A DNA stretch of 64,000 bases from an uncultured Tateyamaria sp. (GTDB taxonomy: Bacteria > Pseudomonadota > Alphaproteobacteria > Rhodobacterales > Rhodobacteraceae). A program made the position numbers and the translations under genes. A model generated the notes under the pieces. It saw only the letters and a program-made list of their open reading frames with translations. It searched no databases and was not told the DNA's origin. Below, piece by piece: positions 43,889 to 55,950 of the stretch; positions within the stretch are counted from its first letter, which is position 1; every line of letters begins with the position of its first letter. The stretch lies in contig NZ_CANNDO010000004.1 of the NCBI RefSeq assembly GCF_947503385.1, forward strand, positions 186,001-250,000, given 5' to 3'.

Positions 43889-44197
43889 TCACTCCAGCGT
43901 CACAGGCGCTCCGTGGGGCGTGTGCAGATAAGCGGCCCGCCACGCCTCCGTCAGCCGCGCCGTCTCCGCCGCGTCTGCGGTGCCAAGCTCGACCAGAATC
44001 GCCTCCAGCGTCTCCAGCCACGCGGCAAAATAATCGTCCCCACCGTTCAGCGCGGTATCCGCACCGTGCCTGCGCAACGTGGCCCCAAACCGCTCCGCCC
44101 AGTCGGGCCACGCGAAATGCCCCGCTTCGTTCAAATGGACGGTCAACGCAAAAAGCTGCGCGTGCCACGGTGCCTCGAATACCGGGTCCGGCGTCAT
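43889..44197 (-). CDS. Nitrile hydratase accessory/activator protein
   Basis: 102 residues. Resembles the N-terminal part of the beta chain and the P14K/NhlE type activators that load cobalt and oxidise the active-site cysteines (FEAPWHAQLFALTVHLNEAGHFAWPDWAERFGA). It overlaps the beta chain gene by four bases, so the order is alpha, beta, activator on the minus strand, as in Co-type operons. Confidence 0.85.
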   Translation of the reverse strand: MTPDPVFEAPWHAQLFALTVHLNEAGHFAWPDWAERFGATLRRHGADTALNGGDDYFAAWLETLEAILVELGTADAAETARLTEAWRAAYLHTPHGAPVTLE

Positions 44198-44868
44198 GCG
44201 CGGCTCAGATAGCTCTGCCAGAGGTCGGCCACGACCTCGTCGCCGGGATGTTCGGGATGCGCCCAAAGGCTCTCTGCCTTGAACGCCACCGCATAAAGCG
44301 GCTCCGGGTCCTCGCCAAAGCCATGTGCGTTGCTGTCCGGCAGCACATGTGCCCCGTGGCATCGCACCACCACTCCTGTCGCCCCGGCCAGATACCCGGG
44401 CAGCCGGGTGTGGCCCCCGGCGACGGCCGCGTTCTCTGCCGGTTTGCGCGCCACAACCGCATCGCCGGGCGCAAATGTGGCCACCGGCCCACCGACCCGC
44501 GTCGCGGGTCCGCCGCGTGCCAGAACACCGGCCACATCCGCGGCCTCCAGCCGTTTGTCCGCCAAAGGTGACACACCATCAGCAACGCCGCTTACCAGCT
44601 CGGCCCGTGTCACGGCACCGGTTTCCACCAGCAGATCAGCCAGTGCAGCAAGCCATTTCTCATAGTAACTGAACCGCGCGTAATCCGTGGGCGCGAGCCC
44701 TTCGCGCCGATGCCGCGACAGGTCGATGCTCCACAATCCCAACGCACCACAGGCAAGCGTCACCGCCAGCGCGCGGGGATGCCAATCGGCATGGAATTTC
44801 ACCCCTTCCGGCTCAGGCGTCACCGGCCCGTCACCGAACCGCCCCCCCATGTCGTGCACCCGGCTCAT
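44194..44868 (-). CDS. nthB: Nitrile hydratase beta subunit
   Basis: 224 residues. Starts with the family motif ([16 protein letters not shown]) and ends with the SH3-like domain that contacts the active site ([36 protein letters not shown]). It forms the alpha-beta enzyme that hydrates nitriles to amides. ATG at 44868 overlaps the alpha-chain stop by four bases (ATGA). Confidence 0.93.
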
Positions 44869-45473
44869 GGTGCAACCGCCAGACCGCAGCCGATCATCGA
44901 ATCGCGGGTAACCAGCGCCTGCAATGCCACTGCGTTCAGAGCCTCGGTGCCCGCAGGCCGCGCCGGCAACACAAGATACCGCACTTCCGCCGTGGAATCC
45001 CACACCCGCACTGCCGTTTCATCCGGCAAACTCACCCCGAACTCTGCCAGCACCTTGCGCGGCTCCCGCACGGCCCGCGCCCGGTAGGCGTCGGATTTGT
45101 ACCAGCCCGGCGGAATCCCAAGCAGCGGCCACGGGTAGCACGAGCACAATGTGCACACGACCATGTTGTGCACCGCATCCGTATTCTCGACCACAACCAT
45201 GTGTTCGCCCTGCCGCCCATAATAGCCCAATTCGGCCAGCACAGGGTCCGCATCGTCCAGCAATGCCGCCTTAAAGGCCGGATCGCTCCATGCCCGCGCC
45301 ACGACATGCGCCCCGTTCTTCGGTCCGATGCGGTTTTCGTAGGTGTCGATGATCTCGTCCAGCGCCGCCGGATCGATCAGCCCCTTTTGGGTCAACAACG
45401 TCTCCAACGCCTTGACGCGCAAGGCGGGTTCGGGCGGCAAAACACTGTGCGGGTGGTCGTGATCATGTGGCAT
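44865..45473 (-). CDS. nthA: Nitrile hydratase alpha subunit (cobalt type)
   Basis: 202 residues. The metal site is [12 protein letters not shown] (C107, C110, C112); the Thr between the first cysteines marks the cobalt type (iron type has Ser). The cysteines are oxidised to sulfinic and sulfenic acids after loading. His-rich start [10 protein letters not shown]. The ATG at 45473 is chosen over an upstream frame start without match. It is divergent from secG (113 bp). Confidence 0.94.
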
Positions 45474-45586
45474 GGTGTCAACCTGATCATAGCGGGCGGC
45501 AATGTCCAGCACGCAGCACCCTTGCCCCCTCTGGCAAACTTGCATAGATACCGCGCATCGCGCAGCAAAGGTGCCCAAAAGCCTCC

Positions 45587-47767: not shown

Positions 47768-47831
47768 CCCGCAGCCCGCGCGCATTTTCCATTTCGCGCC
47801 GCGTGGGATTGGTGTTTGCATAGCAGACAAG

Positions 47832-49040
47832 ATGACCACCACCCACAAATCCTTTACCGACGGCACCCATCGCATTGTGGACCCTGCTGTCACGCTGGCC
47901 AGCGTGCACCCGCATCTGGCGGCGATGGGCATCACGCGGGTGGCCAATGTGACCGGTTTGGACCGGATCGGCATCCCGGTTGTCAACGCCTACCGCCCGA
48001 ATGCGCGCGCTCTGTCGGTGTCGCAGGGCAAAGGGCTGACCCTTGATGCCGCCAAAGCGTCGGCGGTGATGGAAGCCGTCGAAGGGTTCCACGCCGAAGA
48101 GATCGACCTGCCCTATCTGACCGCCAGCGCGGACCAACAGGCCAAGACGGGTCGCCTGATCGACACGGACAGGCTGCCATACCTGCACGGCACCACCTTC
48201 AACCGTGATCGTGTCCTGCACTGGATCGAGGGGCGCGACCTTGTCTCCGGTCAATCGGTATGGTTGCCCGCCGAACTGGTCCACACCGACTATACCCTGC
48301 CCCGCCAGCCCAATGCGGGTTGCTTCGTGGCCAGCACCAACGGTCTGGCCTCGGGCAATCACGCGTTTGAGGCGCAGGTGCACGGCATCTGCGAGGTGAT
48401 CGAGCGAGACGCCCACACCATGTGGGACCACCTGCCATTCCGGCACAAGGCCGCAACGCAGCTTGATCTGGGCACGGTGACGGAACCGCAATGCCGACGC
48501 GTGATCGACGCGCTGACCGCCGCAGGCATGGCGGTTGGGGTCTGGGACATGTCCGGCGATGTGGGCGTAGCCACCTTCCACTGTCTGATCACCGACACGC
48601 GCGATGCCGATGGGCATTCGGGTGGCGGCGCGGGCACGCATCTGTGCCGCGAGGTCGCCCTGATGCGCGCGCTGACCGAGGCCGTGCAAGTGCGCACCAA
48701 CTACATCACCGGTGCCCGCGACGACCTGCACCCGACAGAATACACGCCCGCAGGCATCGCACGCAAAAACCGCTACGCTCAGGAACTGATGGAGGGGCCC
48801 ATCGCCCATGCGGTTCCGTTTGGGGACATCCCCACACACAGATGCGAGACATTGGAAGAAGATCTGGACATCCTCCTGACACGGCTGCAAGCCGTGGGTG
48901 TAACCGAGGTCGTCGCCGTCGACCTCGCCAAACCCGCCTTTGGCATCGCTGTGCAGCGCATCGTCATTCCCGGCCTCGAAGGACCGCACGATCACGACGA
49001 CTATTGCCCCGGCGACCGGGCACTGCGGGTGCCGCGATGA
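47832..49040 (+). CDS. YcaO-family ATP-dependent cyclodehydratase/thioamidase
   Basis: 402 residues. YcaO enzymes activate a peptide amide with ATP and then form azolines from Ser/Thr/Cys or, with TfuA as partner, replace the backbone oxygen by sulfur. Family residues seen: SAVMEAVEGFHAEE (ATP site, residues ~78-90), EVIERDAHTMW (E188, E191, R192, D193) and ALTEAVQVRTNYITGARDD (~280-298). No PxPxP end, so it is not the azoline-type C-terminus. It overlaps tfuA by four bases (ATGA). The ribosome site is weak. The partner gene order argues for the thioamide class; the exact product is unproven. Confidence 0.9.
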   Translation: MTTTHKSFTDGTHRIVDPAVTLASVHPHLAAMGITRVANVTGLDRIGIPVVNAYRPNARALSVSQGKGLTLDAAKASAVMEAVEGFHAEEIDLPYLTASADQQAKTGRLIDTDRLPYLHGTTFNRDRVLHWIEGRDLVSGQSVWLPAELVHTDYTLPRQPNAGCFVASTNGLASGNHAFEAQVHGICEVIERDAHTMWDHLPFRHKAATQLDLGTVTEPQCRRVIDALTAAGMAVGVWDMSGDVGVATFHCLITDTRDADGHSGGGAGTHLCREVALMRALTEAVQVRTNYITGARDDLHPTEYTPAGIARKNRYAQELMEGPIAHAVPFGDIPTHRCETLEEDLDILLTRLQAVGVTEVVAVDLAKPAFGIAVQRIVIPGLEGPHDHDDYCPGDRALRVPR

Positions 49041-50311
49041 TCCACGTCTTTGCGGGCCCCACCATCGCCTCTGCCGCTGTGACCGACATACTGCCGCAGG
49101 CGCGGCTCCATCCGCCGGCCCGCACCGGCGACATCCATGCCGCCTGCCAGCACGGCGCGTCTGCCATCGGTCTCATCGACGGGTATTTCGACGGGGTGCC
49201 ATCGGTCTGGCACAAGGAAATCCTGTGGGCGCTGGATCAAGGCATCGCGGTGTTTGGCGCGGCCAGCATGGGCGCTCTGCGCGCCGCCGAATTGCACAGC
49301 TTTGGCATGGTCGGCGTCGGCGCGATATTCGAGGCCTATCGTGACGGCACCTTTGAGGATGATGATGAGGTGGCTTTGCGCCACGGTCCGGCGGAACTGG
49401 GCTATGTCGCGCTGTCCGAGCCGATGGTGAACATCCGCGCCACACTGGCGCTGGCCACCGAGCGGGGCCAGATCGACGGCAATGCGGCGGCCCAACTGAT
49501 CATGCGAGCCAAGGCCCTGCATTTCCCTGACCGCACATGGGACACTTTGCTGGGCACGGGTGACCTGCGCGTCTGGGTGCGCGAGCACGCCGTCGACCAG
49601 AAACAACGCGACGCGCTCCAGATGCTGACCGATATGGCCTCGGACATCCCCAAGCCTATGGCCACGTTCACCTTCCAACATACCGTCATGTGGGAAGGCT
49701 TGGTGCGCGCGGCGGGCCCGGACCGCCACACCACATTGATCTTGGACCAGTTGCGCCATGACCCGGAGGCCTATGTCGATCTGCGCCGCCGCGCGGTGGC
49801 GACGCTTGCCGCTGACACGTCTTGGGAGGTGTCACAGGCCGAGGTGCACCGCGCCGTGACACGGTTTCGGGCCGAACGACAACTATACACCGCGCAAGCG
49901 CTCAATGACTGGCTGGAAGCGCACAAGACGGACCTCAACGCGCTGCACTATCGCTGCGCCGAAGACATCGGACTGACCGACGTTATCGCACAGCACCGCG
50001 ACGCATTTGACGTGGCACTGGTCGACCTCTTACAGAGCGACGGCACGCTTGCGGGGCTGCGCAGGCGCGCGCGACACATGGCGGCCACGCTGGATACACT
50101 CGGGCACCCGAACCCCGCACCGGACAGCCTCGACCTGCAACCCGGGGCGCTTTTGCAATGGTATTTCGAGACCGTCACGCACCGCCCCGTGCCCGATGAT
50201 CTCGACGCCTATATCAAGACAAGCGACTTCGCCGACCGGGACGCATTCGAACAAATGATGGCGCGCACCTATTTGCTGTGGCATCACAAAGACGGGGGGC
50301 ACAACGCGTGA
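49037..50311 (+). CDS. TfuA-family protein with long C-terminal extension
   Basis: 424 residues. Residues 1-~160 are TfuA: VFAGPTI, GASAIGLIDGYFDGVPSVWHKEI, GAASMGALRAAELHSFGMVGVG and DDDEVALRH. TfuA works with YcaO in thioamide formation. Residues ~230-424 are an extra helical region with no recognised domain (ALNDWLEAHKTDLNALHY and later PGALLQWYFET), making the protein nearly twice the usual TfuA length. The stop overlaps the metalloprotease start (GTGA), so the three genes are coupled. Confidence 0.88.
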   Translation: MIHVFAGPTIASAAVTDILPQARLHPPARTGDIHAACQHGASAIGLIDGYFDGVPSVWHKEILWALDQGIAVFGAASMGALRAAELHSFGMVGVGAIFEAYRDGTFEDDDEVALRHGPAELGYVALSEPMVNIRATLALATERGQIDGNAAAQLIMRAKALHFPDRTWDTLLGTGDLRVWVREHAVDQKQRDALQMLTDMASDIPKPMATFTFQHTVMWEGLVRAAGPDRHTTLILDQLRHDPEAYVDLRRRAVATLAADTSWEVSQAEVHRAVTRFRAERQLYTAQALNDWLEAHKTDLNALHYRCAEDIGLTDVIAQHRDAFDVALVDLLQSDGTLAGLRRRARHMAATLDTLGHPNPAPDSLDLQPGALLQWYFETVTHRPVPDDLDAYIKTSDFADRDAFEQMMARTYLLWHHKDGGHNA

Positions 50312-51663
50312 GCTACGTTGAAACCGAACATTCCGGCGGCACACGGTTCAGGCTGTTTCCGCAATTGCCCACGCTTGATCAGCAGCAAGAGCCTGAGACG
50401 ATATGGGTTTCGTCCCCCGCCGGCACGGTCATGCCCGGCCCGTCCGATCACCGCATGTACGTCATCGACCCGGTGGGCAAGGAACGCGCCTATGGCTATT
50501 ACCCCGGTCCCGGCGGATCGACCTTTCACTACCGTCCCCCGTGGCAGGGCCCGCTGTTGCCGTTCGCCCATCCCGATGACGACGGCCATTTCGACCACCT
50601 CGACACTGGCACGTACGAATTCGAACAGGCCCACGCCTTTGGCGCGATCCGCTTTACCATGGACATCTGGGAACGGTATTTTGAACGCCGCCTCGAATTT
50701 CACTTTCGTGACCACTACGACCGGCTTGAAATTCTGTTCCTGCGCGGGCTCGACAATGCATTTGCGGGCTTCGGTTCGATCGAGATTGGATCCTACACGC
50801 TCAAGACCGGGGAACTGGTGGAATTTGGCCTGAGCTTTGACATCCTGTCTCACGAATTCGGGCACCTTATCATCTACAACGAGATTGGCCTGCCGGGCAA
50901 AACCGACGTGAACGGGGAATATTTCGGCTTTCACGAATCCGCGGCGGACATGGTGGCGCTGATTTCCCTGCTGCATTTCGACAGCGCTTTGGTGGGTCTG
51001 CTCGAGGCAAGCAGCGGCAACCTCTATTCGTTCAACCGGCTCAACCGCTTTGGCGAGGTGTCAAACAACGGTCAGCTGCGGTCCGCATCCAACGAGGTGA
51101 CGTTGTACCAGTTTGCCGGAGGCTGGGTGCATGAACATGACCTCAGTCAGGTCCTGACAGGCGCGCTGTTCGACATCTGGGTCGATATCTTTCACGAAAA
51201 TTTGCTGGCTGGCGGGTTGATCTCGTCCGAGCTTGAGGATTTGTCCGACCGGCTCGAAGGGGACCCGAATTATCAGGCGATAGTCCAGCCGCTGTTTGAC
51301 GCGGCTTATGCGCAAAATCCCGGTGCCTTCGCTGATGCGCTGATCGCCTCGCGCGATTACATGGGCTTTGCCATGGCCGGAATCTGGGACCACCTGTCGA
51401 TCGAGACGCTGGATTACGCGGACGTCTACAAGACCTTTCTCGAGGTCGACCATGCCATGACGGGCGGGCAGTATCACCGGATCATCCGCCTGAACATGGA
51501 ACGTCGTGGTATCGGTGTGATCAGCGCGGGACCGCGCCTTGCCCCCCCGGATGAAACCAGCCACGCCTTCTCGGATCGGACCGCCACGCCGGACGACCAA
51601 CAGCACAGATGCAGCCGCCACCTGCCCTATGCGATCCGCCGTGAAATTGCGCAACACCGCTAG
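50308..51663 (+). CDS. Gluzincin (thermolysin/fungalysin-like) zinc metalloprotease
   Basis: 451 residues. HEFGHLIIY (H182, E183, H186) with a third zinc ligand Glu210 in FHESAADMVAL, the gluzincin layout. No signal peptide or membrane helix is visible, so it likely acts in the cytosol or is exported by an unseen route. Residues ~1-110 are a beta-rich N-terminal part; ~230-400 a helical part. Start is GTG at 50308, sharing bases with the tfuA stop. Its coupling to YcaO-TfuA suggests maturation of a modified peptide or protein, for example leader removal; that is inference. Confidence 0.7.
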   Translation: MSYVETEHSGGTRFRLFPQLPTLDQQQEPETIWVSSPAGTVMPGPSDHRMYVIDPVGKERAYGYYPGPGGSTFHYRPPWQGPLLPFAHPDDDGHFDHLDTGTYEFEQAHAFGAIRFTMDIWERYFERRLEFHFRDHYDRLEILFLRGLDNAFAGFGSIEIGSYTLKTGELVEFGLSFDILSHEFGHLIIYNEIGLPGKTDVNGEYFGFHESAADMVALISLLHFDSALVGLLEASSGNLYSFNRLNRFGEVSNNGQLRSASNEVTLYQFAGGWVHEHDLSQVLTGALFDIWVDIFHENLLAGGLISSELEDLSDRLEGDPNYQAIVQPLFDAAYAQNPGAFADALIASRDYMGFAMAGIWDHLSIETLDYADVYKTFLEVDHAMTGGQYHRIIRLNMERRGIGVISAGPRLAPPDETSHAFSDRTATPDDQQHRCSRHLPYAIRREIAQHR

Positions 51664-51776
51664 GCGCTGCGCGCGCAGTTCAGGAAAAAACTGACACCGT
51701 CGCATCCGATATGTCATAGATTGCACATTGGGGACCGGCGCATCGCGCGCCGTCAGTGTCGGGGGAGGACACGGAT

Positions 51777-52373
51777 TTGGGTGATAGACTTGTAAATTTT
51801 TCGACAATTTTGCTTTTTGGCCGCGAACTGGATGATTTGAAATACGAAGAGGCCGCAGGACCAAACGAAACGCAGACATCCAACGCAGGCAACGTGGTGC
51901 CGCAGACCAAGCGGCCCGAACAGTCGGACAAAAATGATTTCGTCGACGCGCAACTGGCCGCTTCGGGCGCACGCTTTGCGCGCATCTTCGGCTTCAGCTT
52001 CGAAGGGCACTACTACGACCTTGCGCGGCCGCAGATTTTTCTGGTGCATGGCGCAGGCGCGCCCGCCGAGGATCAGCAGGCCGTGTCCAAACGCGGACGC
52101 GGCAGTGTCGATCAGGCCGGGCTTTCGCGTCGCAACGTAAAATTTGCCGATGACGTGATGGTCTGGGCCTATGAGAAATCCGATTTCTCGATCCGGCTCG
52201 ACCCCGAGATCGGACCGCTGGATCAAATTCTGCTGGACGCCGAATTGGGTCAGGACGGCGGCGGCTACAGCGGCGGCAAGGCCTATAGCGGTGGCAAAGC
52301 CTACAGTGGCGGCAAGGCTTATAGCGGTGGCAAAGCCTATAGCGGGGGCAAAGCGTTCGGCGGCAGCGACTGA
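51777..52373 (+). CDS. Protein with C-terminal (YSGGKA)5 tail, candidate YcaO-TfuA substrate
   Basis: 198 residues from a TTG start with GGGGGAGG seven bases upstream; a GTG at 51756 in the same frame lacks such a site. Residues 1-~155 look globular (LVNFSTILLFGRELDDL, ARIFGFSFEGHYYDLARPQ, FADDVMVWAYEKSDF). The tail starts at GQDGGG and holds five perfect YSGGKA copies, then FGGSD. The last gene of the ycaO block, same strand, 113 bp after the protease. A globular leader with repeated short cores is a RiPP-like design. No family is recognised. It could instead be a Gly/Tyr-rich surface or adhesion tail. Confidence 0.6.
   Translation: MGDRLVNFSTILLFGRELDDLKYEEAAGPNETQTSNAGNVVPQTKRPEQSDKNDFVDAQLAASGARFARIFGFSFEGHYYDLARPQIFLVHGAGAPAEDQQAVSKRGRGSVDQAGLSRRNVKFADDVMVWAYEKSDFSIRLDPEIGPLDQILLDAELGQDGGGYSGGKAYSGGKAYSGGKAYSGGKAYSGGKAFGGSD
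52266..52355 (+). repeat. Five tandem 18-bp coding repeats (YSGGKA)
   Basis: Copies at 52266, 52284, 52302, 52320 and 52338, each 18 bp, all encoding Tyr-Ser-Gly-Gly-Lys-Ala. The codons vary between copies (TAC/TAT, AGC/AGT, GGC/GGT/GGG, AAG/AAA, GCC/GCT/GCG), so the peptide is kept while the DNA drifts, which points to selection on the protein. Confidence 0.95.
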
Positions 52374-52376
52374 CCG

Positions 52377-52850
52377 TTATGCAGCGCGTCCCGTTGTCAG
52401 GCGCTTGTGGATTTTGGTGTCATCCTCGGACGTTCGCTCGAATCCAAGCCTGCGGTACAGGGTGATTGCCGGATTGCCCCGTACCAGCGACAGGCTGACA
52501 TTCTTGTTCTGGCCGGTCGCATCGGCAATCACCGCCTTGATCAGCGCGGTGCCGATCCCCTGCCCGCGCACCTCTTCGATCAGGTGCAACTGATCAAGGC
52601 ACAGCTCCTTGTGGGTCTGCGACACCTGAATCCACCCCGCGTCAACACCTGCCACGGTGACGACGCGAATTTCCGCTGCGATGAAATAGCCGCGAAACGC
52701 GGCGTCAATCTGATCTGCGTCCCACGCATCCAGCGCAATCAACAATGGCTTCATCGAACTCAGATATAGGTCCCGGGCAAAGTCAAAATCCGCGTCGGTC
52801 GCGGGCCGCAAATCATAGGCAGGCGACGCCGGACAGTCCCACGCGGTCAC
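52377..52850 (-). CDS. GNAT-family N-acetyltransferase
   Basis: 157 residues with the GNAT core: DLRPATDADFDFARDLYL start, LDQLHLIEEVRGQGIGTALIKAVI (motif A, acetyl-CoA loop) and SLVRGNPAITLYRRLGFERT (motif B). Substrate unknown. It is the downstream gene of the cyclase and overlaps it by four bases (ATGA), so both are made from one transcript. It is convergent with the (YSGGKA)5 gene, with three bases between. Confidence 0.88.
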   Translation of the reverse strand: MTAWDCPASPAYDLRPATDADFDFARDLYLSSMKPLLIALDAWDADQIDAAFRGYFIAAEIRVVTVAGVDAGWIQVSQTHKELCLDQLHLIEEVRGQGIGTALIKAVIADATGQNKNVSLSLVRGNPAITLYRRLGFERTSEDDTKIHKRLTTGRAA

Positions 52851-54607
52851 TGCAGGCCCGCCTTCTTCAACCCCTCGATCAGCCGATCCCGTGGGCCGGG
52901 ATTGCGGTCCGGAGGCACGTTTTCCCAGTGTTTCAGGGTGAACTCCGGATGCGTCTCAAGGATCTGCGCTGCGTGCCGCCGCGCTTCATCCATCCGGCCC
53001 AGCAATGCGTTGCTAGCGGTCAGCATCCGGTAGGCTTCTGTCTTGTCGCGCATCTGGGTCAATGTCCGTATGGCCTGTTCGTAGTCATTCATATCAAAGA
53101 ATGCCTCGCCCAGGTGCCATAAATACCAGTCAGGGTAGAACGGGTTCAGCCGCATGGCCCGCCCGATCAACTCCACCGCCCGCTTTGGTTCGCCATAGAC
53201 ACTGGCCGAATGGCCCATCTCGGCCAGAATGTCGGCGTCATTCGGGTTGAACTGGATCGCCCGTTCATAGGCGGCCAGCGATTCGTCGTGGCGGCGCTTG
53301 TAGAGGCAGGCATTGCCCAGGGCCGCGTGCCCCCGCGCGTCATCCGGGTCCAGCCGCAGCGCAATCTCCGCCTTGGTGATCGCGTCATCCAGTGCTTCTT
53401 CGGGGTGTTCGGCCCAGTTGAACCGCCATGCGTCGTTCGACGTGCGCGAGATGCTCGCATACGGCACCGCATAGGCCGGGTCGATGATGGACGCCTGTTC
53501 GAACAGGCGGCGCGCGTGCAGGTTCAACTCGCGCCGCGGCTGCTTGTAGACTTCACGACCCCGCAGGATCAGACCATAGGCCTGCAAGTCCGACGGCGCC
53601 GTGCGTTGCTGGCGCTGCCGCTCGGCCTTGTCGATCTTGACCGACAAACACGAAGCGATGACAGCCGTGATCTCATCCTGAAAGGCAAACACGTCCTCGA
53701 TGCTGCCGTTGAATGTCTCAGCCCAGACCGACCGGCCCGATTCCGCTTCCAGCAATTGTACCTGTACGCGCAACTGATCGCCCGCGCGCTGAAATCCCCC
53801 TGTCGTCAGATAGCGCACGCCCAGCTTGGCACCGATTTCGCGGACGGGCATATGGCGGCTTTCGAACAGGCTTGATGACTGCTGCGCAATCACGTGCAGA
53901 TTGTTGAACCGCGTCAAGTTAGAAATAATGTCGCCCGTCAAGCCGTTGCAAAGATGCGCGTTTTGCGGCTGACCGGACATGTTGTCCAATGGCAGAACCG
54001 CCACCGAATTATCGGGGATGTCCTGCACCGTCACGTGTCGTTCGATGATCGGTGGGGCGGTGACGTGTCGCGCCGTGCCAATGGGCTCGATCTCGAACAC
54101 TTCGATCACCTCGTCAATGTTCTTCAGCTCCGGCGTGCCCAGCGAGGTCAGCGGCACATCCACCACGTCACGCGCTACATGTGACACCGCCTGCGTCACG
54201 CATATCCCACCCGGTTTGGCCAGCGTCTGAACCCGCGCGGCCACGTTGATCGCATGACCGTGCAGGCCGAAATGCCCTTCGCGCACTTCGCCCATGTTGA
54301 TACCGATGCGGAAAGAAATCGGGTCTGCCCCGGAATTCCACACCACGTCGTTGGAAAATTCGCGCTGCATCGCCACTGCAAAATTCACACAGTTCGCCGT
54401 GCTGTCGAACAACGCCAGCACCCCGTCACCCGCGATGTTCTTGATTGTCCCTCCGTAATCCGCAGCCAACTGGCGGATCAGGTTGATCGCATTCGACACC
54501 CGCTGCGAGGTTTCCGCCTCGTTGCGGCTCATCAATTTGGAATAGCCGTAAATATCCGCGACCAGAACAGCCGTATCGCCGTAATGTGTGACGCCTGAAA
54601 TTTCCAC
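52847..54607 (-). CDS. Class III adenylate/guanylate cyclase with TPR repeats
   Basis: 586 residues from GTG 54607. Residues ~8-175 are the catalytic domain: metal Asp18 (AVLVADIYGYSKLM) and Asp61 (IAGDGVLALF), and the Asn/Arg pair in GHAINVAARVQ. Then a TolB-like strand (~220-320) and TPRs to the end (HPEFTLKHW, LAAYERAIQFNPNDADILAEMG). It makes cAMP (or cGMP) in response to a bound partner. Start uncertain: the ribosome site is weak and the frame stays open to 54793, but the domain begins only here. Coupled to a GNAT gene. Confidence 0.82.
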   Translation of the reverse strand: MEISGVTHYGDTAVLVADIYGYSKLMSRNEAETSQRVSNAINLIRQLAADYGGTIKNIAGDGVLALFDSTANCVNFAVAMQREFSNDVVWNSGADPISFRIGINMGEVREGHFGLHGHAINVAARVQTLAKPGGICVTQAVSHVARDVVDVPLTSLGTPELKNIDEVIEVFEIEPIGTARHVTAPPIIERHVTVQDIPDNSVAVLPLDNMSGQPQNAHLCNGLTGDIISNLTRFNNLHVIAQQSSSLFESRHMPVREIGAKLGVRYLTTGGFQRAGDQLRVQVQLLEAESGRSVWAETFNGSIEDVFAFQDEITAVIASCLSVKIDKAERQRQQRTAPSDLQAYGLILRGREVYKQPRRELNLHARRLFEQASIIDPAYAVPYASISRTSNDAWRFNWAEHPEEALDDAITKAEIALRLDPDDARGHAALGNACLYKRRHDESLAAYERAIQFNPNDADILAEMGHSASVYGEPKRAVELIGRAMRLNPFYPDWYLWHLGEAFFDMNDYEQAIRTLTQMRDKTEAYRMLTASNALLGRMDEARRHAAQILETHPEFTLKHWENVPPDRNPGPRDRLIEGLKKAGLQ

Positions 54608-55014
54608 CCAATATCCAATCGCGCAATGGTGCCCAAAATTGGCAAACCCGGAGCTTCGGATCCGCCTTGTTCCTACCGGGTTTGGAAAAATCTGAACAGT
54701 GGGTTTCCGCCGATTGCCTGCACTGCAAGGCGCAAAACCGTGGTTTGCGCGCGCAATGCAACCACAGGTGAGGTCCTGTGCCCCGCGCGACACAATGCGG
54801 CGTTCCCACCGACGCCCCCTTGCCCGCGTGCGTCACGGCCCCTAAGTCTTTCCCAGCCCGAGGCACCCGCCCTCGCGCGACGGAGATTTTATGCAAGAGA
54901 CCCGGACAGCCGTCCGCGCCTGATCGTTTCACGACCGGGACCCGAGACCCAAGGACACTCACGCGCGACGCTGAGTGATCCCGGACGCATACTCTGACAA
55001 AATCGAGACATCCG
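54608..55014. other. 407-bp intergenic region without a supported gene
   Basis: Between the divergent cyclase (minus) and yjhX (plus). Open frames here are overlapping, on both strands, and carry no motif; the minus frame simply continues the cyclase reading upstream. No clear tRNA, terminator or repeat seen. It should hold the promoters of both genes. Confidence 0.5.
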
Positions 55015-55272
55015 TTGAATATCTCAAAACACGAACAGCGTGTTTTGCATGTACTGGCGCTGGGTGGGGCCATCCACCACGAACGGCACGACAATGGCAA
55101 AATACGCAGCATCACCTGCTTTACGCGCGAAGGGCACGTCCTCACAGATTGTACCCTCGACGTATTCCTGCGCCTGAAAAGGCGGCGCTTCATCCGGTCG
55201 CAAAACGGCCGCCCCTACCGCGTGTCGCGCAAAGGGATTGAGGCCGTACGCGCGCAACTCAACCAACGCTGA
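55015..55272 (+). CDS. YjhX/UPF0386-family protein (TopAI-like)
   Basis: 85 residues. Matches the YjhX pattern over its whole length: MNISKHEQRVLHVLALGG start, RSITCFTREGHVLTDCTLDVFLRLKRRRFI, NGRPYRVSRKGIEAVRAQL end. YjhX (TopAI) of E. coli inhibits topoisomerase I and is held in check by YjhQ, a GNAT-type protein. No YjhQ-like gene is adjacent; the nearest GNAT gene is 2.2 kb away on the other strand. The start is TTG, since MNIS is the family N-terminus. Confidence 0.85.
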   Translation: MNISKHEQRVLHVLALGGAIHHERHDNGKIRSITCFTREGHVLTDCTLDVFLRLKRRRFIRSQNGRPYRVSRKGIEAVRAQLNQR

Positions 55273-55336
55273 AAGGGGACCAAAGGACGATATAGCTGCG
55301 GTGCAACTGACCGGATTGCACGGCGCATGACCCAAC

Positions 55337-55368
55337 GCGGGCGGGCCGACCGGCGTCGGCCCGCCCGC
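55337..55368. repeat. Perfect 14-bp inverted repeat
   Basis: GCGGGCGGGCCGAC (55337-55350), loop CGGC, GTCGGCCCGCCCGC (55355-55368). A very stable hairpin 64 bp after the yjhX stop without a T-run. Likely a terminator or mRNA end-stabiliser. Confidence 0.5.
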
Positions 55369-55452
55369 ACCGGATCACGACCGCGTGACGCCGGTTTACC
55401 GGCTGTGTTATGACCTTACCTCAAGGTGCATCGCTTTTGAGAGGAGACTGTC

Positions 55453-55950
55453 ATGCCTACGTCACTCCCCCGCCGCGCCGTGCTGGCCACGGGCGGCGCT
55501 GCACTGATCACCACCGCCGCTGGGCTGCGCGTGCCCGCGCGCGCCGCTGGGCTTGCGCCCACGCCCACCATGCGCGGCGGATCGAACAATTATCGCCCCG
55601 GCGCGCCTATCGTCGAACGGATCGGCGGCGGCGGCTTTTTGATGACCGGTACCGTGCGCCGCGCGGGCGACGGCGCAGCCATACCCGGCGCGCGTATCCA
55701 GATGTGGGCGCACACCACCGAAGGTCACGAGCGCGACCAGCGCATCCACGGTGCGACCCTCACCGATGCCCAAGGGCGCTTTGCCATGGACATGCCGCAG
55801 ATTGTACCGGCCTTTGGTCAGGCCCATGGCCACCTCGCCTATGATGCTGACTTTGACGACAACGGGTTTGAGACCGTGTTCCTGCGCCCGATCATGTCGC
55901 GCGCCTCCGACACAATACTCGACGTCAATTTTGTGCTTGTTCCGGCCTGA
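55453..55950 (+). CDS. Tat-exported intradiol-dioxygenase-like protein
   Basis: 165 residues. Tat-type signal (LPRRAVLATGGAALITTAAG, with RR) then a domain like the intradiol ring-cleavage dioxygenase beta fold (FLMTGTVRRAGDGAAIPGARIQMWAHT, DAQGRFAMDMPQIVP, GHLAYDADFDDNGFETVFLRP). The usual iron ligands, two Tyr and two His in fixed order, are not evident, so activity is doubtful. It ends 12 bp before a membrane protein with haem-type His residues; the two probably work together. Confidence 0.65.
   Translation: MPTSLPRRAVLATGGAALITTAAGLRVPARAAGLAPTPTMRGGSNNYRPGAPIVERIGGGGFLMTGTVRRAGDGAAIPGARIQMWAHTTEGHERDQRIHGATLTDAQGRFAMDMPQIVPAFGQAHGHLAYDADFDDNGFETVFLRPIMSRASDTILDVNFVLVPA

Follow-up and report, generated by a model that had tools for sequence, protein, structure and literature searches.

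What does a YcaO-TfuA enzyme pair modify when it is encoded beside a metalloprotease and a protein that ends in a perfect tandem repeat? This question is raised by a locus within 64,000 nucleotides of an uncultured Tateyamaria sp. of the Rhodobacteraceae (NCBI RefSeq assembly GCF_947503385.1, contig NZ_CANNDO010000004.1, positions 186,001 to 250,000), a stretch hereafter called the window. Here ycaO, tfuA, a gene for a gluzincin-type metalloprotease (MP) and a gene for a repeat protein (Rep) follow one another on one strand. We consider it probable that the locus is a six-gene, horizontally moving thioamide peptide system in which Rep is the substrate. Ocean and soil bacteria appear to share it widely, as an overlooked offshoot of a peptide-modifying chemistry that is already known. 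The first three genes overlap by four bases each (ATGA between ycaO and tfuA, GTGA between tfuA and MP) with all frames open, as a sequence-only reading of the window had noted, and a gap of 113 bp separates MP from Rep. The same reading placed a GTG start of the repeat gene at 51756, which is probably wrong; a TTG start at 51777 is favored because GGAGG precedes it and because it lines up with MGDRLVNFST in close homologues.

Rep is 198 amino acids (aa) long in the window and about 150-325 aa elsewhere. Its N-terminal domain keeps M1, G15, A68, P85, W130 and G146 invariant in an alignment of 25 homologues, and the tail of the window protein consists of the five perfect YSGGKA repeats already noticed in the sequence, followed by FGGSD. 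A tandem tail with a period of 4-6 was found in 77 of 83 Rep open reading frames (ORFs), with Gly in all 77 consensus units, and most Rep tails finish in acidic GD or SD. Loci L107, L110 and L129-L132 were omitted from the tail analysis, and L076, which lies on the same contig as L012, was dropped from the tail and MP counts. The 77 tails fall into the unit types VSGAK (40), VSGAR (19), YSGGKA (8), VSGSR (5), VRGAS (2) and, once each, VGGGK, DLVGRS and MNVG. Further types were seen in loci of a second order (SGANLG, VSGSK and MMTGRS) and in Paracoccus (GMSVx), and the arrays of L062 and L077 have irregular units. The window Rep had no Pfam or NCBIfam match at E up to 1 and no PHROG match, and its AlphaFold model (pLDDT 69) matched no PDB fold at E below 1. 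The longer Rep proteins of Ruegeria carry an inserted stretch. In a PHROG scan of long Rep proteins that covered L070 alone, the insert of L070 (9426-10268) matched phage head-decoration and tail-fiber families (phrog_2647, E=1.2e-13), and Pfam gave nothing in the long Rep proteins of L070, L054 and L077.

The units of the window array are identical in protein, with codons that differ in 52% of unit-by-unit comparisons, and units within a locus are 99% identical in protein. Across 72 loci, 61% of codons differ between identical units against 67.5% expected under random synonymous choice, and 18 loci lie at or above this expectation. Such protein-identical units with near-random synonymous codons point to selection that maintains the protein sequence of every unit, which rules out a chance repeat or recent slippage. 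Between the arrays of related Ruegeria, K and R are swapped in all units at once, and the unit sequence changes among clades while the Rep domain stays. At the sequence level, near-randomized codons under a fixed unit protein are the signature of a multi-core precursor. Rep combines a conserved leader-like domain with a repeated, clade-variable core (8 unit types), at a length outside the 20-120 aa range in which RiPPER looks for short precursors. The repeat protein, which had been proposed as a possible substrate from the window alone, behaves like a precursor in these respects, and the array is likely the substrate. We propose that Rep is a gene-encoded substrate in which the N-terminal domain would serve as a large leader and the C-terminal tandem array as a multi-core.

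The order ycaO-tfuA-MP-Rep recurs in many genomes, a search that the sequence-only reading had suggested. A scan of a species-genome collection with MP as bait gave 132 relatives, the best 80 of which were kept and examined; by title, all of these loci are from Alphaproteobacteria except for one metagenome-assembled genome labeled Gammaproteobacteria. Among these 80 loci tfuA is always present and ycaO is missing once, from a truncated contig; the two genes adjoin in all 79 loci with ycaO on the contig. Rep adjoins MP in 73 of the 80, and the seven misses comprise four contig ends and three loci with Rep elsewhere on the contig. Of 198 genomes sampled from the family, six encode MP, the source included, and the four-gene order is present in all five others. 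A profile of the Rep leader matched six times in 385 genomes of the class, with MP and tfuA beside six of six matches and ycaO beside five; at most nine candidates were scored per genome in this search, so misses are possible. The phylum sample (398 genomes) yielded 13 MP matches. Seven were strong and all had the cassette, with all four genes at the four strong places newly opened. Six were weak, and the four of these that were opened (L133-L136) are read as distant proteases because ycaO, tfuA and Rep are all absent there. In a second order, MP was matched in 40 of 397 genomes, weakly in about half of the 40. Strong matches were opened for the count in this order, and at the 17 places newly fetched ycaO and tfuA are adjacent in all 17 and Rep in 15, the other two being contig ends; five of the 17 (L195, L196, L198, L199 and L200) repeat contigs of the MP-bait scan and are not independent. 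An MP tree was built from 53 of 77 sequences after removal of near-copies, with the truncated L053 left out, and its YSGGKA clade spans Roseobacteraceae, Parvibaculaceae and Phyllobacteriaceae. A plain scaffold or adhesin repeat is disfavored, since almost every opened locus links the tail to tfuA and MP.

These data also bear on whether the array is a source of peptides or a modified protein site. In the latter case the array would stay on Rep as a poly-thioamide protein, comparable to McrA or ribosomal uL16 with their functional thioamide, and MP would be a protease for quality control or regulation. Proteins are among the substrates of YcaO enzymes, as described for uL16 (PMC13063428), Rep is large with a conserved domain and mostly acidic tail ends, and a related branch retains a non-repeat tail. 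A product, however, would account better than a functional protein site for units that switch among clades over a constant domain, and MP is the immediate neighbor of Rep in those 73 loci. On balance, we regard a modified protein as unlikely and prefer Rep as a peptide precursor.

The chemistry expected on this precursor was assessed from the two enzymes. In NCBIfam, the nearest named models of both are the pair for thioamidation of a glycine of methyl-coenzyme M reductase (McrA). YcaO reached 235.9 bits with methan_mark_1, below the cut-off of 365, and TfuA reached 191.9 bits with ThioGly_TfuA_rel, below the cut-off of 235.2. Against PDB sequences, YcaO matched 6pe3 at E=1.6e-29 and TfuA matched 6xp8 at E=8e-32 over residues 4-176. 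Judged by homology, YcaO and TfuA are related to the McrA thioglycine pair and are not McrA equivalogs. The YcaO residues S77, E81, E84, E188, E191, E283, Q286 and R288 are kept in at least 97% of covering rows (85 ORFs) and are presumably part of the ATP site. In TfuA, the PF07812 domain occupies residues 48-167 in the N-terminal half and is followed by a C-terminal extension of ~200 aa; of 86 cassette TfuA ORFs measured stop to stop, 69 are at least 437 aa and 17 at most 314 aa long. A second, weaker YcaO (78 bits) is encoded elsewhere in the source genome (G000 C8:34581-35156).

YcaO is hypothesized to activate backbone amides with ATP and TfuA to supply sulfide, by which one amide per unit would become a thioamide, at or beside the Gly kept in every tandem consensus unit. 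One thioamide per unit near Gly is suggested by the analogy with the thiovarsolins and by the Gly of McrA, on which the nearest named enzymes act. By the same analogies, a thioamide is likely rather than another YcaO product, and the chances that Gly is the modification site are about even. YcaO might instead form azolines on the Ser of each unit, with a shift of -18 Da per unit, and Ser does occur in most unit types (VSGAK, VSGAR, VSGSR and YSGGKA). Arrays of units that lack Ser, Thr and Cys exist, however (GGGKV in L036 and GMNV in L109). A C-terminal PxPxP, which is typical of azoline-forming YcaOs, was found in none of the 85 cassette YcaO ORFs, and tfuA is adjacent in 80/80 loci, so that azoline formation appears highly improbable.

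For MP, no Pfam or NCBIfam match was found at E up to 1, PHROGs gave no match, and none of 58 pattern matches in viral contigs encodes it. Its HEFGH and HESAAD motifs lie at residues 182-186 and 209-214, with H182, E183, G185, H186, E210 and D214 conserved. In a fold search, the AlphaFold model (pLDDT 81) matched the M36 protease 7qfy (E=7e-7) and thermolysin (E=2e-6). At E up to 0.001, 22 PDB entries matched in this search, and we take each of them by name to be M36, a thermolysin-like or an elastase-type metalloprotease. The conserved HExxH with downstream Glu and Asp and the predicted thermolysin/M36-like fold support the gluzincin assignment made from the window. A search of PDB sequences with the MP profile matched only 'Cake' entries, over residues 35-97, and was set aside; the fold search was used.

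MP would cut within or beside the array, freeing the units or removing the leader. Cleavage by thermolysin-type enzymes occurs before hydrophobic residues, and a cut before the hydrophobic first residue of a unit, V or Y, would yield equal units. We put cleavage of the array by MP at roughly even odds. Alternatively, MP might hydroxylate the array or cleave it oxidatively, as an HExxH oxygenase of the alpha-ketoglutarate type. This reading is kept because one HExxH protein of a ribosomally synthesized and post-translationally modified peptide (RiPP) pathway carried a metallopeptidase annotation and turned out to be an oxygenase of this kind, with a zincin-like fold (PMC12636437). With the best fold matches to M36 and thermolysin-like proteases, and with both the Glu and the Asp of the gluzincin HExxH...ExxxD pattern conserved, an oxygenase is nonetheless quite unlikely.

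Two further genes belong to the unit in the window, a GNAT N-acetyltransferase and a class III adenylate/guanylate cyclase (Table 1). The four-gene order that had been proposed is real and widespread; the unit in the window, however, has six genes, and we widened the locus to about 47768-55452 because the GNAT and cyclase genes share the same insertion. In 14 of 19 other genomes of the genus, the gene that comes after pyrG, at a distance of 100-1246 bp, is either that at 55453 (9 genomes) or rlmJ (5 genomes), against a pyrG-to-55453 gap of 7686 bp in the window with the six cassette genes inside. The remaining five have neither flank gene in the 1.5 kb past pyrG. None of the 19 has a cyclase or GNAT in that 1.5 kb, and Rep is absent from all 19. 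Elsewhere, among 72 loci whose sequence extends 4.5 kb or more beyond MP on the 3' side, a nucleotide cyclase (one of two types) is present in 64, a GNAT (one of two types) in 61 and both in 59; the neighbor clustering used ORFs of at least 70 aa. Shared ancestry among the loci inflates these counts, and after grouping at 80% MP identity both genes are present in 13 of 20 groups with enough sequence. The source genome (4.57 Mb) has 10 PF00211 places, which makes the chance presence of a cyclase beside the cassette unlikely. From the neighbor clustering, the empty site in the same genus and the spread in the MP tree, we read the six-gene block as a unit that moves horizontally.

As guesses, GNAT may cap the freed amine by acetylation, and the cyclase would regulate or sense the product. 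The window cyclase matches the PADLOC model PycC, the cyclase of the phage-defense system Pycsar, weakly (best E=1.9e-7), which may reflect the shared cyclase domain alone, and at E up to 0.001 the other five cassette proteins match no PADLOC model. Genes flanking 13 clustered loci, such as L010:3324-4082, include a family of CRP-like cyclic-nucleotide-binding regulators (the Pfam check covered L010 alone), which would fit cyclase-linked control.

Several observations weigh against a six-gene system with Rep as its substrate. The cyclase is lacking from 8 and GNAT from 11 of the 72 loci in the stretch covered, and 26 loci have an ABC-ATPase family in their flanks, never closer to MP than 5 kb. 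MP is absent from the GNAT-ycaO-tfuA-Rep set of Paracoccus denitrificans, and in genome G448 ycaO is on another contig. A sister branch (L010, L011, L014, L110, L129-L132 and L203-L205) is without tandem repeats and shares a single conserved tail, for example SYSAHMQMAHRGGKLS; the tails of L107 and L202 are rich in Arg. On the two Rhizobium plasmids that were opened, MP, Rep and cyclase are present and the sequence out to about 9 kb from MP contains neither ycaO nor tfuA; their Rep tails are of the SRSGG type. A Rep homologue is carried by 49 Rhizobium plasmid records. When these were compared with the best 60 of 353 tfuA records, 35 could be paired with one that bears the same organism name and lies no more than 5 accession numbers away, and 14 could not. 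Conversely, 24 of these best 60 tfuA records have no Rep partner, ycaO-tfuA is common in Rhizobium, and on one opened sister plasmid the ycaO-tfuA pair has its own 47-aa ORF.

Free-standing homologues of the repeat protein, which the sequence-only reading had named as the finding that would count against it, are therefore present in part, on Rhizobium plasmids, with a sister-plasmid tfuA possible for 35 of the 49. Rhizobium ycaO-tfuA may act in trans from such a sister plasmid, given the 35 near-accession records; against this stand the tfuA records without Rep, the commonness of the pair and its own 47-aa ORF. The same plasmids give rise to another explanation, in which Rep is accessory or immunity-like and a short ORF that lacks annotation is the real substrate. 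A 47-aa ORF stands beside ycaO-tfuA in Rhizobium, Rep-MP pairs there are without local ycaO-tfuA, and the clustering of cassette neighbors covered ORFs of at least 70 aa. Purifying selection on each unit and clade-specific units are hard to explain for an accessory protein, and we judge this explanation very unlikely relative to Rep as the substrate. On a Rhizobium acidisoli plasmid (L162:7585-9744), a 47-aa ORF precedes ycaO-tfuA and resembles an ordinary small precursor. In the sister branch, a cyclase-ATPase of ~1000 aa occurs in 8 clustered loci (of 11) and also in the tandem-tailed L108, with domains checked in L010 alone; L010 also has the CRP-like regulator.

How does the cassette relate to described systems? 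For the thiovarsolins, a repeating precursor, YcaO and TfuA are reported to suffice for a thioamidated tripeptide, and the products are N-acetylated (PMC6511847). In the passages of that paper on the var cluster of Streptomyces varsoviensis, no specific protease is noted and an endogenous acetyltransferase is supposed. The cassette resembles this system in its YcaO and TfuA, its repeating core and a basic residue, which is Arg in each thiovarsolin core and is likewise present in many cassette units. It differs from the system as described there in a substrate of about 150-325 aa with a conserved domain and units of 4-6 residues around Gly, in bringing its own protease, GNAT and cyclase, and in being an alphaproteobacterial inserted block; the thiovarsolin cores APR and GPR are not among the 8 cassette unit types. 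The methanogen YcaO/TfuA pair for the McrA glycine, as presented in PMC5589413, is alike in being nearest among NCBIfam models and in acting on Gly, whereas the cassette enzymes score below the cut-offs, would act on a repeat tail and not on McrA, and belong to a bacterial mobile cassette. uL16 is thioamidated by E. coli YcaO, which recognizes the protein fold; that system, as outlined in PMC13063428, differs in having no TfuA, in modifying a residue of a ribosomal protein and not an array, and in not being a mobile cassette. According to the same source, thiocarboxylated ThiS homologues and TfuA transfer sulfide to such YcaO substrates.

Malit et al. 2021 (PMC8120280) report more than 1000 proteobacterial ycaO-tfuA clusters, over 500 of them in Rhizobium and some in Ruegeria, and the cassette family may be among the clusters catalogued there. 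Precursors were sought with RiPPER in that study, which looks for ORFs of 20-120 aa (PMC6511847). Rep would escape a search of that range, which is a likely reason that the cassette was missed. The main text of Malit et al. contains neither 'repeat' nor 'protease', and 'peptidase' occurs in it once, for a prolyl endopeptidase. No description of the four-gene order or of the array was found among the papers listed in searches of the open-licence literature. The earlier statement that these genes are not a described type holds to that extent, and needs the correction that YcaO-TfuA systems with repeat cores are known from the thiovarsolins as reported in PMC6511847. As far as our searches go, an oversized two-part precursor, a near-constant partner with a predicted thermolysin fold, GNAT and cyclase companions and a wide spread are new within the literature searched. 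We know of no published name for the cassette.

If this reading is true, YcaO-TfuA chemistry acts on a large two-part precursor with many identical cores and usually its own protease, and a family found across Roseobacteraceae and several other alphaproteobacterial families escapes precursor searches that stop at 120 aa. The natural variation of units around one fixed Gly would be a ready series for mapping enzyme tolerance, and many loci are from named isolates (Roseovarius, Ruegeria and Leisingera). A more far-reaching form, which we offer tentatively and consider less likely than not, is an undescribed mobile class in which a poly-thioglycine array on a carrier would be diced by the cassette protease into equal, acetyl-capped thioamide peptides that serve as a cyclase-linked signal or metal ligand, missed because the precursor is too large for RiPP-finding software.

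Table 1. Features of the cassette and the inserted block, in window coordinates
Feature	Position	Strand	Basis or remark
ycaO	47832..49040	+	Pfam PF02624, E=4.2e-76; best solved-structure match MJ1094 (6pe3)
tfuA	49037..50311	+	Pfam PF07812, E=8e-48
MP, gluzincin-type metalloprotease gene	50308..51663	+	GTG start; HEFGH and HESAAD motifs
Rep, probable precursor, 198 aa	51777..52373	+	TTG start by Shine-Dalgarno and homologue alignment
Rep conserved leader-like domain	51777..52241	+	Alignment of 25 homologues
Rep core array, five YSGGKA units	52266..52355	+	Units identical in protein
GNAT N-acetyltransferase	52377..52850	-	PF13508, E=1.9e-10
Class III adenylate/guanylate cyclase with tetratricopeptide repeats (TPRs)	52847..54793	-	PF00211, E=3.1e-10, and TPR
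yjhX-like ORF, YjhX-type putative toxin gene	55015..55272		PF09857, E=4e-40; within inserted block, between cyclase and old flank
Inserted block between pyrG and gene at 55453	47768..55452		Same-genus genome comparison

Elsewhere in the window, the minus strand at 43889-45578 carries a nitrile-hydratase-like gene set, with a CTLCSC motif in the ORF at 44865-45578.

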